From Flagellimonas ochracea (GTDB taxonomy: Bacteria > Bacteroidota > Bacteroidia > Flavobacteriales > Flavobacteriaceae), in assembly GCF_009903685.1 (NCBI RefSeq), contig NZ_JAAABI010000002.1:372001-436000 (forward strand): a DNA stretch of 64,000 bases. Reading direction: 5' to 3'. Both the position numbers and the translations under genes were made by a program. This document shows positions 2,354 to 8,468 of this stretch, in pieces. Positions within the stretch are counted from its first letter, which is position 1. Each line of letters begins with the position of its first letter. The notes beneath the pieces were generated by a model, which saw only the letters and a list, made by a program, of their open reading frames with translations, searched no databases and was not told the origin of the DNA.

Positions 2354-3979
2354 CTATTTCAAGATACTATGGTACTTGGAGGTGTCTTTCAACAAGGATT
2401 TTGCAGAAACAATAGCATCGTCGTGGGTTAGATAATGATCATAAAGACCCGCCCGATAAAAGTAGCGTTTGATAATTTCGTCCTCTAATTTCTTTTTGAT
2501 TTCTTTCTGATAGTTGTCCAAAGCAGAAATTTTGCCCCTGCTCACAGCCAAAAGAAGATCTTTATACTTTTCTTGAACCTCTGCCCCAAGCAAATGCTCA
2601 TCTGTGTTTATGGATTGTTCCAACAGCGTTTCGGTTTCGGTTTGAAAAGTAAAATTCTGAGCTTGGGCGTAACGCTTGAATGCCTCATAGTCCGAATCAG
2701 GGAACGAAAAATCGGCCACTGAATCAAAAGAATGATCGTAATAGTAATCGGTGGCAAAATCGAAAATAATGTTGTTTTGCTGCAACGCATCAATAAGGGT
2801 ATTGGATTGAAGGGATGCAATCTCAACGTCTGGCATTACACCTCCACCGTCCCGGACTTTGCGGCCATTTTTAGTGGTAAATTCCTTGAAATTGGTATTT
2901 CTTACCGCATTACCCTCTGTATCCCTATTCCAATAATCCAAAGACTGAATACAACGCCCAGAAGGCGTGTAATAACGAGAAATGGTGACCTTGAGCTGAG
3001 TTCCATAGGTGAGTTTTAGTGGTCGTTGCACTAACCCTTTTCCAAAACTTCGGGCTCCAATTATAATGGCACGATCTAAATCTTGCAATCCTCCAGAAAC
3101 AATTTCACTGGCAGATGCACTACGGCCATCTATTAAAACGGCCAATGGTATTTCCAGGTCTTCCGGTTTGTTTTTGGTTCTATATTCCTGATTGAATTTT
3201 TTTACCTTGGACTTTGTGGTTACAATCAGTTCGCCCTTAGGCACAAACAAATTGGTCACATTAATTGCCTCGGAAAGCAACCCCCCCGGGTTTCCCCTAA
3301 GGTCCAGCACCAATCTTTCAGCCCCTTTTCCTTTAAGGTCTTGCAAGGCAGATTTTGTTTGGCTCGATGCCTTTCGGTTAAAACGGGAAAGCACAATGTA
3401 ACCTGTTTTGTCATCAATCATGCTATAAAAAGGCACGGCATCGACCTCTACAGCTTCCCTTGTGATCGTGGCTGTTTTCGTTTCGCCCTGGCGAACAAAG
3501 GTTACGTTTACCTGGGTGTTGTTTGCCCCTTTGAGCAATTCACCGGCATCATCGTTAAAATCTGAAACCTTAGTATCGCCAATTTTAATGATTTCATCTC
3601 CTGCTTTTAATCCTGCCTTATCTGCTGCATATCCTTCATATGTTTCCACAATAAGCAACTTGCTTTCGTAGGAACGCACCAAGGCCCCAATACCGGAGTA
3701 CTCACCCGCATTGTTAATTCTGTAGGCCTCAACATCCTGTTCATTCAAAAACTGGGTGTACGGGTCAAGCTCACCGAGCATATTCTTTATGGCTGAATCC
3801 ATGAGCTCTGCAGGATTGGTCTCATCCACGTAGTTCATGTTCAGCTCTTTAAAAAGTGTTGTGAAGATTTCTATCTGCTTGGCAATCTCGAAAAAATCAC
3901 TTTTAAAACTGCTTGCCCCAATCAATATGCCAATGGCCAAGATGGGAATTAATATGTGCTTTCTACGCATTTTTCTCAT
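2354..3979 (-). CDS. S41 family C-terminal processing peptidase
   Basis: This 541-residue protein has an N-terminal membrane anchor or signal (HILIPILAIGILIGASSF), a PDZ domain at about 90-170 (GEYSGIGALV, DKAGLKAGDEI), and an S41 protease domain. The catalytic Ser is in DGRSASASEIV (around 286) and the catalytic Lys in FGKGLVQ (around 312). Such periplasmic Ctp/Prc proteases cleave or degrade envelope proteins from their C termini. The 5' end overlaps the end of the rnpA gene by 17 bases; Met4 (3970) is an alternative start that also overlaps. An rnpA-S41 order is usual in Flavobacteriia, so this is native core context. Confidence 0.9.
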   Translation of the reverse strand: MRKMRRKHILIPILAIGILIGASSFKSDFFEIAKQIEIFTTLFKELNMNYVDETNPAELMDSAIKNMLGELDPYTQFLNEQDVEAYRINNAGEYSGIGALVRSYESKLLIVETYEGYAADKAGLKAGDEIIKIGDTKVSDFNDDAGELLKGANNTQVNVTFVRQGETKTATITREAVEVDAVPFYSMIDDKTGYIVLSRFNRKASSQTKSALQDLKGKGAERLVLDLRGNPGGLLSEAINVTNLFVPKGELIVTTKSKVKKFNQEYRTKNKPEDLEIPLAVLIDGRSASASEIVSGGLQDLDRAIIIGARSFGKGLVQRPLKLTYGTQLKVTISRYYTPSGRCIQSLDYWNRDTEGNAVRNTNFKEFTTKNGRKVRDGGGVMPDVEIASLQSNTLIDALQQNNIIFDFATDYYYDHSFDSVADFSFPDSDYEAFKRYAQAQNFTFQTETETLLEQSINTDEHLLGAEVQEKYKDLLLAVSRGKISALDNYQKEIKKKLEDEIIKRYFYRAGLYDHYLTHDDAIVSAKSLLKDTSKYHSILK

Positions 3980-4772
3980 TGCATTCTTTGTTTATAAAAG
4001 AGGCCAAAATTTGCTTCATGCCTTTGTTAACGTCTTTAAAATTGGGCATCTGGTCTCCAATATATAAAAATAAGAACGCAAACTTTCCCTCCATGTTGTT
4101 AAAAACTAGCGGTTTGTTCAAACGATATGCTTCACGCATCAACCGCTTGATACGGTTTCTACTTACGGCACTTTTGAATTTTTTTTTGGGTGTTACAAAC
4201 CCAGCTTTGATTGGAACATCTTCTTCAAAATAGGTTTTTATGTACATCAGCTTCAAGGGATACTCACGAATATTTTTGCCCTCGTCGAACAGCCTCTTGA
4301 ACAAGGCCCTGCTTTTAAGCTTTTCTTTTTTAGGGAAAGAAGACTTGGCAGTGTCCCCTTGAGGGAACTTTGGGGATTTTAAAGAATGACTTAAGAGCTT
4401 GTCATTCTCTTTTCTAATCTGAGAAATAACATCCTTGAGAACATGTAATACATGGAACATATCGTCTTTTACTTCGTTGTCGGAAAACCTAACAACTTGT
4501 ACACCCACCTTGGCCAATTCACACTCCCGCTGCAAATCTTTTTCATATTTATAATCATGGGATATCCCGTCAATTTCAATAGCCAACTTTAGTTCATAAC
4601 AATAGAAGTCCACAATAAATTCCAATAAAGGAACTTGCCTGTGAAACTGAACCCCCAAGGCACGCTGTTTTAGTTTTTGCCAAAGCAAAACCTCAGAAAG
4701 CGTACTGTTTTTTCTTAGTTGCTTTGCAAATTCTTTGAGTTTGGGATTGTATGGAATGATTTTGTTCTTCAC
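3963..4772 (-). CDS. rnpA: DUF559 nuclease-like domain fused to ribonuclease P protein component
   Basis: One uninterrupted 269-codon frame holds two domains. Residues 1-120 are a DUF559 (Vsr/PD-(D/E)xK-like) domain with IIPYNPKLKEFAKQLRKN, FHRQVPLLEFIVDFYC and LAIEIDGISHD. Residues 137-269 are RnpA, with SFPKKEKLKSRALFKRLF, AGFVTPKKKFKSAVSRNRIK and LMREAYRL, the RNase P protein signature. RnpA is the basic protein cofactor of RNase P, which matures tRNA 5' ends. No in-frame ATG, GTG or TTG lies between the linker and the RnpA domain, so RnpA seems to be made as a fusion or after internal initiation at a non-standard codon. The start used is a GTG. The DUF559 part is bracketed by inverted repeats (see 4352-4803). 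A sequencing frameshift cannot explain it, since the frame is open throughout. Confidence 0.85.
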   Translation of the reverse strand: MKNKIIPYNPKLKEFAKQLRKNSTLSEVLLWQKLKQRALGVQFHRQVPLLEFIVDFYCYELKLAIEIDGISHDYKYEKDLQRECELAKVGVQVVRFSDNEVKDDMFHVLHVLKDVISQIRKENDKLLSHSLKSPKFPQGDTAKSSFPKKEKLKSRALFKRLFDEGKNIREYPLKLMYIKTYFEEDVPIKAGFVTPKKKFKSAVSRNRIKRLMREAYRLNKPLVFNNMEGKFAFLFLYIGDQMPNFKDVNKGMKQILASFINKECNEKNA

Positions 4773-4803
4773 TGGACACCCCTAAAGTCCCCTTAAGGGG
4801 ATA
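4352..4803. mobile_element. DUF559 cassette bounded by inverted repeats
   Basis: The DUF559-coding part of the rnpA fusion lies between two related sequences in inverted orientation. The left copy (4354-4378) reads TCCCCTTGAGGGAACTTTGG onward; the right copy, read on the minus strand from 4801, is TCCCCTTAAGGGGACTTTAG onward, differing at a few positions. Each copy contains a short palindrome (perfect at 4788-4801, TCCCCTTAAGGGGA). The unit is about 450 bp, carries no transposase, and ends right at the RnpA domain. It is read here as an inserted selfish or domesticated cassette; the mobility is inferred. Confidence 0.5.
4788..4801. repeat. Perfect palindrome in the right repeat of the DUF559 cassette
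   Basis: TCCCCTTAAGGGGA is a 14-bp perfect palindrome 16 bases upstream of the GTG start of the DUF559-RnpA frame. A near copy (TCCCCTTGAGGGA) is at 4354-4366, on the RnpA side of the DUF559 module. In the transcript the two could pair with each other or fold separately. Confidence 0.7.
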
Positions 4804-4963: not shown

Positions 4964-6817
4964 TTAAGGATCGGACTGGTACACGTTATTTTCCTCGTTA
5001 ACATCTGCCATCAGTTGGGAAGGATCGAGCACGATAACCTTCACGTCATCAATGGGAACATTAAGCGTGAATTCGTAAGTGGGGTGGGTCCAAGACCAGT
5101 CTTTCAAAACAGTGCGCTTCAAGTTGGAATAGGGATTCTCCTTTTCACCCCGCATCATTCTTAAGGGAACATAACAAGTTTCCTGATTGCCCTCTGCATC
5201 TACTATCAGAATATCTAGGGGCATGGGCATTTCTCCTATCCGCTCAAGGACAACTTTGGTTTTGTCTTCACTTGCCTCCACGCTTTTAATGCCATAGTCT
5301 ATCGTGTTGGTGGTTTGGGTCCAATCAGTCAAATACCAGTCTAGCTCCATACCAGAAACTTTTTCTGCAGTTCTTTTGATATCATTAGGAACAGGATGCT
5401 TGAATTTGAAATCTTCATAATATTTCCTTATGGCCTCCATTAATTTATCCTGCCCAATAACATACCCTAGTTGGGACAGAAATATGGAGCCTTTGCTATA
5501 GGCTGCGATACCATACGCAAAATTCGTTGCATAGCGGTCCGCATGGGTGGTCTGTGGCTTTTCCAAACCGGAGTTGACCAATGCGTAATATCCTTTATAG
5601 GAGTTTTCGAAAGGATTTTCCTTGTTCTGTTCCATAATTTCGTTCATGCAAAGACTACTGATAAAGGACGTGAAACCTTCGTCCATCCATTCATGCTTGG
5701 ACTCATTGGTGGCCAACACATGTTGAAACCAGGAATGGGCCATTTCGTGCACCATGACCCCAACCAAACTGGAGAATGTCCTTTTGCCTGTAATAAGGGT
5801 GCTCATGGCATATTCCATGCCACCGTCCCCGCCTTGCACAACAGAATATTGATCATACGGATATTTACCAATGTTTTTGTTGAAGAACGCCATGGCGGCC
5901 TCGGTTTTTGGCTGTAATTTTTTCCAATTCTCAATAATTTCAGGGTCGTTCTTATAATAAAAATGCAATGTGGGACCATCAGCCATTTCAACGGTGTCAT
6001 GAATATAATCTGGGTCTGCTGCCCACATAAAATCGTGCACATTTGGAGCTTTAAAGTGCCAAGTAATCGTCTTTCCTCTGGTTTTTACTTTGCTCCCTGG
6101 CCTCTCATATCCATGGCCTACTTCATTGGGGTTTTGCAAATAACCGGTCCCTCCCACGGTGTAATCCTTATCTAAGGTGAGCTTTACATCAAAATCTCCC
6201 CACACCCCATGAAACTCTCGGGCAATGTAGGGATTGGGATGCCACCCCTCATAATCATATTCTGAAAGCTTTGGATACCATTGACTCATGGAAAGCGCAA
6301 TACCTTCTGCATTGTTTCTTCCAGACCTCCGGATTTGTAGTGGCACTTGTCCTTCAAATTTCATGTCTAAGGTGGTCTTTCCCCCAGAAGGAATGGGGCT
6401 GGCCAAATCGACCACCAAAATAGTACCTTCCTCATGGAAGGCAACCGGCTGTCCATCTTGTGTAAGGGAAGTAGCATGTATATAGCCCATTTCACTTTCT
6501 GAAAGGGAGGCAATCCTACTTTTCCCATCTTCCATCATCCTTTTATCGGGGTCTTTGACATTTTGAAGCCTCACATCCATATCACTACCTGGCTGAAAAG
6601 CATTGAAATAGAGGTGATAATACACACGTTTCAGTTCATCTGGAGAATTGTTGGTATAGACCAATTTTTGTGTTCCTGAATATTGAAAAGTCTTAACATC
6701 CATTACCACATCCATGGTATAATCTACATGCTGTTGCCAATAGCTGGAATTGTTTTGCGATGTTGCAAAAAATATCCCAGAACAAATTGTCATTAGAAAT
6801 ACTATTATTTTTTTCAT
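4964..6817 (-). CDS. M1 family zinc aminopeptidase
   Basis: The protein has a signal peptide (MKKIIVFLMTICSGIFFATSQ) and an M1 domain. The zinc site is HEMAH near residue 355 with the third ligand Glu 18 residues further on (HEWMDEG); GGDGGMEYAM precedes it as the M1 exopeptidase motif (GxMEN equivalent). It should remove N-terminal residues from peptides in the periplasm or outside the cell. I chose the ATG at 6817, whose codon follows the S8 gene stop after one base; an ATG at 6829 would add four residues and overlap that gene. It is a likely operon partner of the S8 protease upstream. Confidence 0.88.
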   Translation of the reverse strand: MKKIIVFLMTICSGIFFATSQNNSSYWQQHVDYTMDVVMDVKTFQYSGTQKLVYTNNSPDELKRVYYHLYFNAFQPGSDMDVRLQNVKDPDKRMMEDGKSRIASLSESEMGYIHATSLTQDGQPVAFHEEGTILVVDLASPIPSGGKTTLDMKFEGQVPLQIRRSGRNNAEGIALSMSQWYPKLSEYDYEGWHPNPYIAREFHGVWGDFDVKLTLDKDYTVGGTGYLQNPNEVGHGYERPGSKVKTRGKTITWHFKAPNVHDFMWAADPDYIHDTVEMADGPTLHFYYKNDPEIIENWKKLQPKTEAAMAFFNKNIGKYPYDQYSVVQGGDGGMEYAMSTLITGKRTFSSLVGVMVHEMAHSWFQHVLATNESKHEWMDEGFTSFISSLCMNEIMEQNKENPFENSYKGYYALVNSGLEKPQTTHADRYATNFAYGIAAYSKGSIFLSQLGYVIGQDKLMEAIRKYYEDFKFKHPVPNDIKRTAEKVSGMELDWYLTDWTQTTNTIDYGIKSVEASEDKTKVVLERIGEMPMPLDILIVDAEGNQETCYVPLRMMRGEKENPYSNLKRTVLKDWSWTHPTYEFTLNVPIDDVKVIVLDPSQLMADVNEENNVYQSDP

Positions 6818-6818
6818 A

Positions 6819-8468
6819 TTACTTTGCATTGCTGTTTAGGGTTAATTTGCCTTTGGAAATACTCTCGGCCAATAGCAACGCATTGTAGGCATTGACCATT
6901 TTCCCTGATTTTGATATTTGATTGAACGTGGTTGCTTGGGACGCATCTCCCGATACAATTACCGATGCTTTTGAGCGTAATCCTGATTGCATCAGAACCT
7001 GTTTGACTTGGGAAGCCTTAAGTTTTGGATAGTGTGATCGAATTAGAGCGGCGATGCCAGCAACGGCCGGAGCCGCCATTGAGGTGCCGCCCTGAAAATC
7101 GTATTCGTTGTTGGGCATGGTCGAGTAGATGTCGCTGCCTGGCGCGAAAACATCCACATTTTGATTTCCATAATTGGAAAAAGAAGCTACCATTTTAGAA
7201 CCATAGCTACTGGTTAATGCACCAACAGTGATGACATTATCCGAGAATTCCGAATCGGAGAACATGTGATCGTTGGGATAGTTGGGATTTTCGGGTTGGT
7301 CTAAATTACTGCCATCGTTGCCTGCAGCGTGAACAATCAGCACATCTTTTAAAGCGGCATATTTAATGGCATCATAGACCCATTTAGGATTTGGTGAAAA
7401 GGATTTCCCAAAACTGCAGTTTATAATTTTTGCACCATTGTCCACCGCATATCGGATGGCCAAAGCGATGTCTTTATCGTACTCATCACCATTGGGAACA
7501 GCGCGCAAACTCATCAATTTCACGTTGTTGGCCACACCATTGATGCCGACTCCATTGTTCCTTTCTGCCGCAATAATGCCCGCCACATGGGTTCCATGGC
7601 TTTCGGTATCTACCTGGTTTTTAGGGTTGCCGTTGCCATAATCTCGGTCCGAGAAATTATAAGGATCATCTCCAACGGGCTCCCTTCCATTAAAATCTTT
7701 GTTGAGATTGTAGTTTACCTGATCTGTAAAATAGTCGATTCCATCGGTCAATTCTTCCAAAACGGATGGGATGTCATCACCATAGGCAAACATCTGGGTC
7801 AGCACAGCAACATGTTGCTGCATTTGTTCCGTTTTAGCCTCAATGCCCACCAAATCCTTTTTGGTATAGGTGTCTTTTCCCAATTCTTTTTTAACGGCCT
7901 CATCTGCATTTTTCACAACCTGGAGAATTTGTTCGTACTGTTGTTTGTTTTGCAGCGCAGAAGGATATTCTTCATCCAACTTTAGACGTGCTTTTGCCCT
8001 TTCAGCGGAGTCGCCTATGCCCAAGCGCAGCATGCGGACATATTCCAGTTGTTCGTTATAGGATTCACCCAAAAAATTATAGCCGTGTATATCGTCCACA
8101 TATCCGTTGCCATCATCATCTTTCCCGTTGTTTGGCTGTTCATCTTTATTGGTCCAAAGTACCCCATCCAGGTCTTCGTGTTCCAAATCAATACCTGAAT
8201 CAACAACGGCCACCACAACGGTTTTTCCTTTTTTGTTTTTAATGATTTCGTTGTATGCTCTATTTAGGCTTATCCCAGGAACGGTGTCGGCAATAAGGTC
8301 GGCATGCGCCCAGTCTTTCTTCTGGTCCTCGGAAAGCTCTGAAATCTTTAAAGGAACTTTATCTATGTTTTCTACAGGAGTCGAAACCAATGTGGTTGCC
8401 CCACAGCCAACAAGCAACAAGGCCAAAAAGCATGTAACAAATGATGTTTGAATACGGATAAATGTCAT
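6819..8468 (-). CDS. S8 family subtilisin-like lipoprotein protease
   Basis: The 549-residue product has a lipoprotein signal (lipobox LLLVGC, Cys22). The subtilase triad is visible: Asp90 in VAVVDSGIDLEHEDLDG, His near 291 in ESHGTHVAGIIAA, and Ser near 461 in GGTSMAAPAVAG. An insertion of about 140 residues, predicted to be helical, lies between the Asp and His blocks, which makes it longer than the compact subtilisins. It probably acts at the outer membrane or periplasm on proteins, with the M1 peptidase encoded just downstream finishing the peptides. The latter is inference from gene order. Confidence 0.9.
   Translation of the reverse strand: MTFIRIQTSFVTCFLALLLVGCGATTLVSTPVENIDKVPLKISELSEDQKKDWAHADLIADTVPGISLNRAYNEIIKNKKGKTVVVAVVDSGIDLEHEDLDGVLWTNKDEQPNNGKDDDGNGYVDDIHGYNFLGESYNEQLEYVRMLRLGIGDSAERAKARLKLDEEYPSALQNKQQYEQILQVVKNADEAVKKELGKDTYTKKDLVGIEAKTEQMQQHVAVLTQMFAYGDDIPSVLEELTDGIDYFTDQVNYNLNKDFNGREPVGDDPYNFSDRDYGNGNPKNQVDTESHGTHVAGIIAAERNNGVGINGVANNVKLMSLRAVPNGDEYDKDIALAIRYAVDNGAKIINCSFGKSFSPNPKWVYDAIKYAALKDVLIVHAAGNDGSNLDQPENPNYPNDHMFSDSEFSDNVITVGALTSSYGSKMVASFSNYGNQNVDVFAPGSDIYSTMPNNEYDFQGGTSMAAPAVAGIAALIRSHYPKLKASQVKQVLMQSGLRSKASVIVSGDASQATTFNQISKSGKMVNAYNALLLAESISKGKLTLNSNAK

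Follow-up and report, generated by a model that had tools for sequence, protein, structure and literature searches.

A nuclease gene in frame with the only rnpA of Flagellimonas ochracea: probable footprint of a homing-like element that is not spliced out

How can the protein component of RNase P, the product of an essential gene, be encoded only as the tail of a nuclease-like protein? This question is raised by a locus of Flagellimonas ochracea (RefSeq assembly GCF_009903685.1) within positions 372,001 to 436,000 of contig NZ_JAAABI010000002.1. We refer to this stretch of 64,000 nucleotides as the window, and its coordinates are used throughout. The open reading frame in question (3963..4772, minus strand) starts with GTG at 4770-4772, comprises 269 amino acids (aa) and has no internal stop. 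It combines a DUF559 nuclease domain (4437..4742, minus strand; residues 11-112, Pfam E-value 1.5e-28) with an RnpA domain (Ribonuclease_P; 4005..4337, minus strand; residues 146-256, Pfam E-value 3.2e-19). Our answer is that rnpA was probably invaded by a non-splicing, homing-like nuclease element which remains in the host protein. The fusion resembles the footprint of a nuclease element, bounded by terminal inverted repeats (TIRs) and set at the rnpA start, more than it does a bifunctional protein built for its purpose.

The original prediction, made from the sequence alone, had proposed both domains, the lack of any other rnpA and the lack of a usable start codon between the two parts. All three claims hold. 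Both domains match their Pfam families at the residues given above, and DUF559 (PF04480) scores 99.3 bits against a curated cut-off of 20.6. A check for a second intact rnpA found none in the window genome (3,568,956 bp, completeness 100%), where PF00825 matches once. The RnpA assignment itself is based on this match, on the single copy per genome and on a conserved neighbourhood. From residue 106 to the RnpA core, the linker has no in-frame ATG, GTG, TTG or CTG.

The DUF559 gene lies between two TIRs. The left one, TATCCCCTTAAGGGGACTTTAGGGGTGT (4776..4803, minus strand), shows three mismatches to the 28-bp TIR of G044, another genome of the genus, whose element ends form a perfect 28-bp inverted pair, TGTCCCCTTGAGGGGACCTTAGGGGTGT. 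The right one (4352..4379, minus strand) shows five mismatches and is translated as part of the in-frame linker (..LKSPKFPQGD..). A general repeat search had missed both window TIRs, and they were recovered by a pattern search: the pattern CCCCTTNAGGGNACTTTNGGG has two zero-mismatch matches in the window, in opposite orientation and one at each end of the DUF559 gene, with a chance expectation of 0.05 when up to three mismatches are allowed. Comparison with empty and scarred relatives delimits an inserted element of 452 bp from TIR to TIR (4352..4803, minus strand); its counterparts in G012 and G026 measure 488 bp. At the element's place, G034, a close relative of G044, has the ordinary rnpA start AATGTCC (alignment by eye). 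Lacking a stop codon of its own, the DUF559 frame continues through the right TIR, which in fusions and scar genomes is mostly translated as (T)PL(K/R)SPQGD, into rnpA.

Palindromes of this kind also occur singly. In the window genome, lone TIR-related arms lie between genes, e.g., upstream of a carA-like gene (L083, contig C48, 570-590; L082, contig C22, 595-615), and a 509-aa frame of G010 (L350) ends in frame with a solitary arm, translated as its C-terminal tail TPLKSPQGDNVSA. A solo 18-bp palindrome located 5' of rnpA in G008, G024, and G005 (in the latter with one end differing) could be a target still unoccupied or a scar left by excision.

Our genus sample comprises 71 genomes, whose rnpA regions were scanned from one common anchor. 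The rnpA fusion is present in nine of them, and all nine carry both TIRs, with 0-3 mismatches on the left and 0-5 on the right. Among the 62 unfused genomes, 17 retain a right-TIR scar with at most eight mismatches; the best right-end match of single-base shuffles had nine, and G025, with nine mismatches, was kept out of the count. Broken DUF559 pieces are kept in G056, G015, G068, and G032. In the last of these (L132), about 1.5 kb separate rnpA from a left TIR and a DUF559 piece upstream of it, which looks like an entry of other DNA into the element. Among the best 120 of 472 protein matches, the fusion recurs in at least 50 clusters, that of the window included; the nearest named ones belong to Muricauda, Flagellimonas, and Allomuricauda, and the fusion spans several genera, with Flagellimonas marina and Croceitalea marina among the named fused species. 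Thus, the oddity that the original prediction pointed out is real but not unique. Outside the genus it is rare: among 140 genomes of the family, one per genus and 138 of them with rnpA, a frame above 230 aa was found in two, the window genome and G205.

On a tree of the flanking genes and RnpA (FastTree, 1076 columns, 71 genomes, midpoint root), the fusions are positioned at G000, G053, G044, and in a scar-rich clade containing G012, G019, G026, G040, G041, and G069, each time with unfused neighbours. In the unfused species of this clade, RnpA begins with a leader M-x-E-E-N or M-Q-x-E followed by ..SPQGD, which resembles the end of DUF559 followed by the right TIR. The notion that RnpA does not tolerate N-terminal additions, on which the original prediction had relied, is therefore doubtful, as scar species have RnpA frames with extra N-terminal residues, counted from their likely starts.

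One pair within the clade points to different histories of element and surroundings. Of the 2100 bp aligned between G012 and G026, the 488 bp of the element show 2 differences and the other 1612 positions 210 (p = 7e-23). Sequence identity reaches 54 bp to the left and 31 bp to the right beyond the element, and the synonymous divergence (dS) is 0.01 for DUF559 versus 0.69 for rnpA. G001 and G010, nearest to G012 on the tree, carry a scar only. This pattern looks like a recent, element-limited horizontal exchange between species.

What is exchanged resembles a known type of enzyme. Purifying selection on the DUF559 domain is strong, and the active-site-like residues E27, D55, E66, D68, and H72 are conserved in 33-35 of 35 aligned fusions. 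Its predicted fold matches the fold of the catalytic domain of I-Bth0305I, an EDxHD homing endonuclease. We infer that DUF559 cleaves DNA and that the element makes use of a homing step.

Further host genes carry DUF559 in frame. The surveys of host genes, palindromes and Y1 transposases cover 70 of the 71 genus genomes (all but G040). They place DUF559 in leuS of five genomes (G035, G037, G042, G047, G056), recG of six (G019, G030, G041, G042, G046, G062), metH of two (G020, G047), hemD of three (G020, G028, G029), and hsdR of three (G002, G041, G049). Host genes were named by sequence recognition, aided by Pfam on leuS and recG examples and by the domain lists of near relatives for hemD and metH. 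The DUF559 frame was sought by motif at 60 loci, two of which (L125 and L133) gave none, and the DUF559 search and palindrome scan list all but the weakest matches. Weak DUF559 matches (profile positions of about 67-108) in nearly every genus genome stem from another gene (in the window genome, L003), which by eye appears Vsr-like, and were excluded from the counts. At the host-gene junctions viewed, a part of 58 flanks, we found G/C-run palindromes translated as PPPPKGE, TPPSGGGG and similar.

Unfilled recG frames measure 471-764 aa, some of them cut by contig ends; G025, G034, G035, and G058 (L210, L211, L212, L216) keep in-frame scars of 9-12 aa at the place where DUF559 stands in filled genes, and the remaining aligned unfilled genes are plain empty sites. 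The recG inserts of G046 and G041 are 94.2% identical versus 82-84% in the flanks, and the G041 insert is closer to that of G046 than to that of its sister G019. Like the bounded interspecies exchange at rnpA, the recG inserts bear indirectly on a possible homing of the element. In recG and leuS, the insert comprises scarcely more than DUF559 plus short linkers. Besides DUF559, one loop of leuS in the genus (e.g., L177-L206, L122-L126) gathers repeat-like in-frame insertions such as LDAERSRSD, SSAVEKS, DEMLKQVQHD, and STPLNHPYQ, and leuS frames mostly range from 936 to 1200 aa. The locus of a DUF559-bearing metH contains a SAM (S-adenosylmethionine) riboswitch (L121:6614-6736, minus strand).

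Beyond the genus, the database matches listed join DUF559 to ilvA, cutC, leuS, metH, metG, rnr, hemD, rimM, recO, hisF, and others; further protein searches rest on the best 120 of 364 matches and, in another case, on all 69. The domain is N-terminal in rnpA, ilvA, hemD, rimM, and hisF, and internal in leuS, recG, recO, and metH. Fusions of ilvA-like genes at three Winogradskyella loci and in one Flavobacteriaceae bacterium possess the same PLKSPQGD linker. A DUF559 match at E <=1e-20 was found in 48 of 118 Bacteroidota genomes, and 19 of 100 listed Bacteroidota matches lie in frames above 230 aa, some of which may not be insertions. One methionyl-tRNA synthetase record (P0139) shows the DUF559 match in two stretches. 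A RimM with N-terminal DUF559 (P0278) comes, according to its source, from an alphaproteobacterial metagenome-assembled genome, so in-frame DUF559 may extend beyond the Bacteroidota.

How, then, would RnpA be made? The original prediction left a functional fusion, cleavage or unusual initiation as options, the first of which fits best, while cleavage and an internal start are less favoured. In 35 aligned fusions, assessed for methionine at the protein level, the frame is maintained through linkers of 17-64 aa; 21 have no linker methionine, and six of the 35 also have none in residues 102-109. Since many fusions keep the frame open without a linker methionine, the simplest assumption, and one that we judge fairly probable, is that RnpA is translated as a tolerated fusion. 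A lesser but serious possibility is that RnpA is made separately by internal initiation and that the shared frame is incidental, the element still being a mobile insertion. In the window, initiation would use M105, the closest in-frame ATG 5' of RnpA (4458..4460, minus strand), which lies in the last DUF559 helix and would give a product of 165 aa, or the ATT of residue 119. In-frame ATT codons stand at residues 116 and 119; the position of the latter (I119; 4416..4418, minus strand) is ATG in six of the nine genus fusions and the likely rnpA start in scar species (alignment by eye). This linker ATG speaks for internal initiation, as do GTG or TTG codons near or in the linker of the G044 and G053 fusions (such starts were checked in genus DNA) and the different frames of DUF559 and RnpA in G056 and G015. 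Opposed to it are the fusion of the window, which has no linker ATG, and the methionine-free open linkers just described. Proteolytic trimming we regard as unlikely.

Other origins of the fusion were weighed against the invasion of rnpA by a mobile nuclease element. If the nuclease domain served RNase P or the host in a role under selection, such as defence or the processing of RNA or DNA, a domesticated fusion would account for the strong purifying selection on DUF559, for its conserved active-site-like residues and for its spread over several genera. It would be at odds with the repeated absences with scars within one genus, with DUF559 standing in frame in the unrelated leuS, metH, hemD, and recG, and with the defence library (PADLOC), which gave two weak matches only; we consider domestication improbable, and the identity as a defence gene was rejected on the same two matches. 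Somewhat less probable still is that a REP-type Y1 transposase (RAYT / IS200-like) mobilises the palindromic ends, with DUF559 as a passenger. The ends, which can form hairpins, and the scattered single arms (up to 14 per genome) do resemble REP repeats or MITEs (miniature inverted-repeat transposable elements), but the Y1 transposase family PF01797 is confined to 13 of 70 genomes and missing from G007, G068, G044, G056, G026, G034, and G015, which have 5-14 palindromes each. G069, with seven palindromes, does carry it. An identity as REP/RAYT or IS200/IS605 element found no support, given this transposase's absence from the window genome and the seven palindrome-rich genomes, its presence in G069 notwithstanding.

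An intein or intron was rejected on the examples tested: no Rfam intron family was found in four filled loci (L175, L207, L122, L121) and no intein splicing domain in a profile search of eight fusion proteins, although strongly diverged elements could escape the models, and the recG and leuS inserts are about the length of DUF559. An artefact of assembly, sequencing or annotation has hardly any probability left, as the fusion recurs with differing sequences in nine of 71 genomes and is shared by protein clusters of several sources, of which there are at least 50.

Several observations weigh against the proposed mobile element or parts of it. Over a large part of the scar clade the element looks old and vertically inherited with losses. 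Its mobility is read from a single clean exchange at rnpA and one recG comparison, and ordinary homologous recombination could leave a short tract as well; leuS insert pairs show 64-91% identity versus 80-89% in the flanks, mostly without excess. By eye, no target-site duplication was definable in the empty/filled pairs of rnpA, recG, and metH. TIRs differ between host genes, making one mobilisation mechanism for all sites an extrapolation. DUF559 sequences cluster by host gene (38 changes versus 175 shuffled), which suggests site-specific lineages, but the set (21 identical sequences of 313 dropped) was seeded by similarity to rnpA, leuS, and hemD copies, favouring clustering by site. The RnpA part of the structure model is of low confidence (pLDDT blocks 34-75), and the ATG, GTG or TTG codons at the linkers of eight of the nine genus fusions, named above, count against translation as a fusion.

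With these points considered, we propose the following course of events. A mobile element of about 450-490 bp, composed of two palindrome-bearing 28-bp TIRs around one DUF559 nuclease gene of the Vsr / EDxHD homing-endonuclease fold, would have been inserted at the rnpA start codon. As its stopless frame would pass the right TIR in the LKSPQGD phase into the host gene, the essential gene would not be knocked out but become the working C-terminal part of a fusion. The element would persist by homing: in related bacteria, copies of this site that are empty or scarred would be cut and then repaired from the filled copy. It would also occasionally found new sites. Loss by deletion would leave in-frame scars. 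Nothing would be removed from RNA or protein, and the nuclease domain would stay on the host protein.

Whether this describes a further class of protein-embedded mobile elements besides inteins we regard as an even question. Such elements would pair a nuclease of homing type with palindromic ends whose correct phase is free of stops, enter essential genes in frame, never be spliced, and become a permanent appendage or internal domain of the host protein. They would be widespread in Bacteroidota (rnpA, leuS, recG, metH, hemD, ilvA), occur in other phyla (rimM), and reshape core proteins by in-frame scars. If so, a selfish nuclease can inhabit indispensable genes without self-splicing, by means of translatable ends, which is a different answer to the problem solved by inteins and introns. 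Numerous puzzling database entries, tRNA ligases, helicases and cofactor enzymes labelled 'DUF559 domain-containing', would be accounted for, and candidate source elements for in-frame palindromic insertions would be at hand. The fusions would show, as a catalogue compiled by nature, where core enzymes tolerate insertions, and would provide a large number of small candidate nucleases that are site-specific and whose host sites are known.

In the window, the fused gene is flanked upstream by what we take to be an aminopeptidase-like gene (4964..6829, minus strand) and downstream by a presumably ctpA-like protease gene (2354..3979, minus strand), both named from their sequences; homologues occupy the same positions next to rnpA in relatives. 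The RNR motif of RnpA is usually invariant. In the sole rnpA of G002, G033, G012, G026, G070, and G039 it is altered (RNGIKR, RNHIKR, RIHVKR, RSKVKR), and the sole rnpA of G064 has RNRVER, i.e., RNR is kept and the next K changed.

Among known systems, Rickettsia palindromic elements (RPEs) and EDxHD homing endonucleases, with Vsr endonucleases beside the latter, come closest. RPEs are described, in the excerpts at hand, as repeats of palindromic DNA that have entered unrelated protein genes in frame and are tolerated by the host protein (PMC10969869, PMC3733652), and the palindromic DNA of our element likewise stands in frame in coding sequence. However, RPEs measure about 150 bp, and those excerpts name no nuclease (PMC10969869, PMC3733652). 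As a type, RPEs are short and non-autonomous and carry no enzyme gene, whereas here palindromes flank a conserved nuclease gene encoding a full DUF559, and a homing-like exchange is seen. EDxHD enzymes are described, again in the portions available, with group I introns and inteins (PMC3943268, PMC9403480). In contrast to them, the nuclease found here stays in the host frame, with no splicing element detected in the four loci and eight proteins. With inteins, the element shares a nuclease domain in frame in conserved host proteins and a patchy distribution, but the eight fusions have no splicing domain and the recG and leuS inserts barely exceed DUF559. The parts resemble known kinds, RPE-like in-frame palindromes and an EDxHD nuclease; the accessible parts of the open-licence literature yielded no report of their combination and none of in-frame DUF559 insertion in host genes. 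The free-standing homing endonuclease genes of phages are one-gene nuclease elements that are exchanged between relatives with short co-converted flanks. Our element is like them in its single nuclease gene and in its exchange between relatives with short flanks, and unlike them it is bounded by TIRs and fused in frame to essential host genes.
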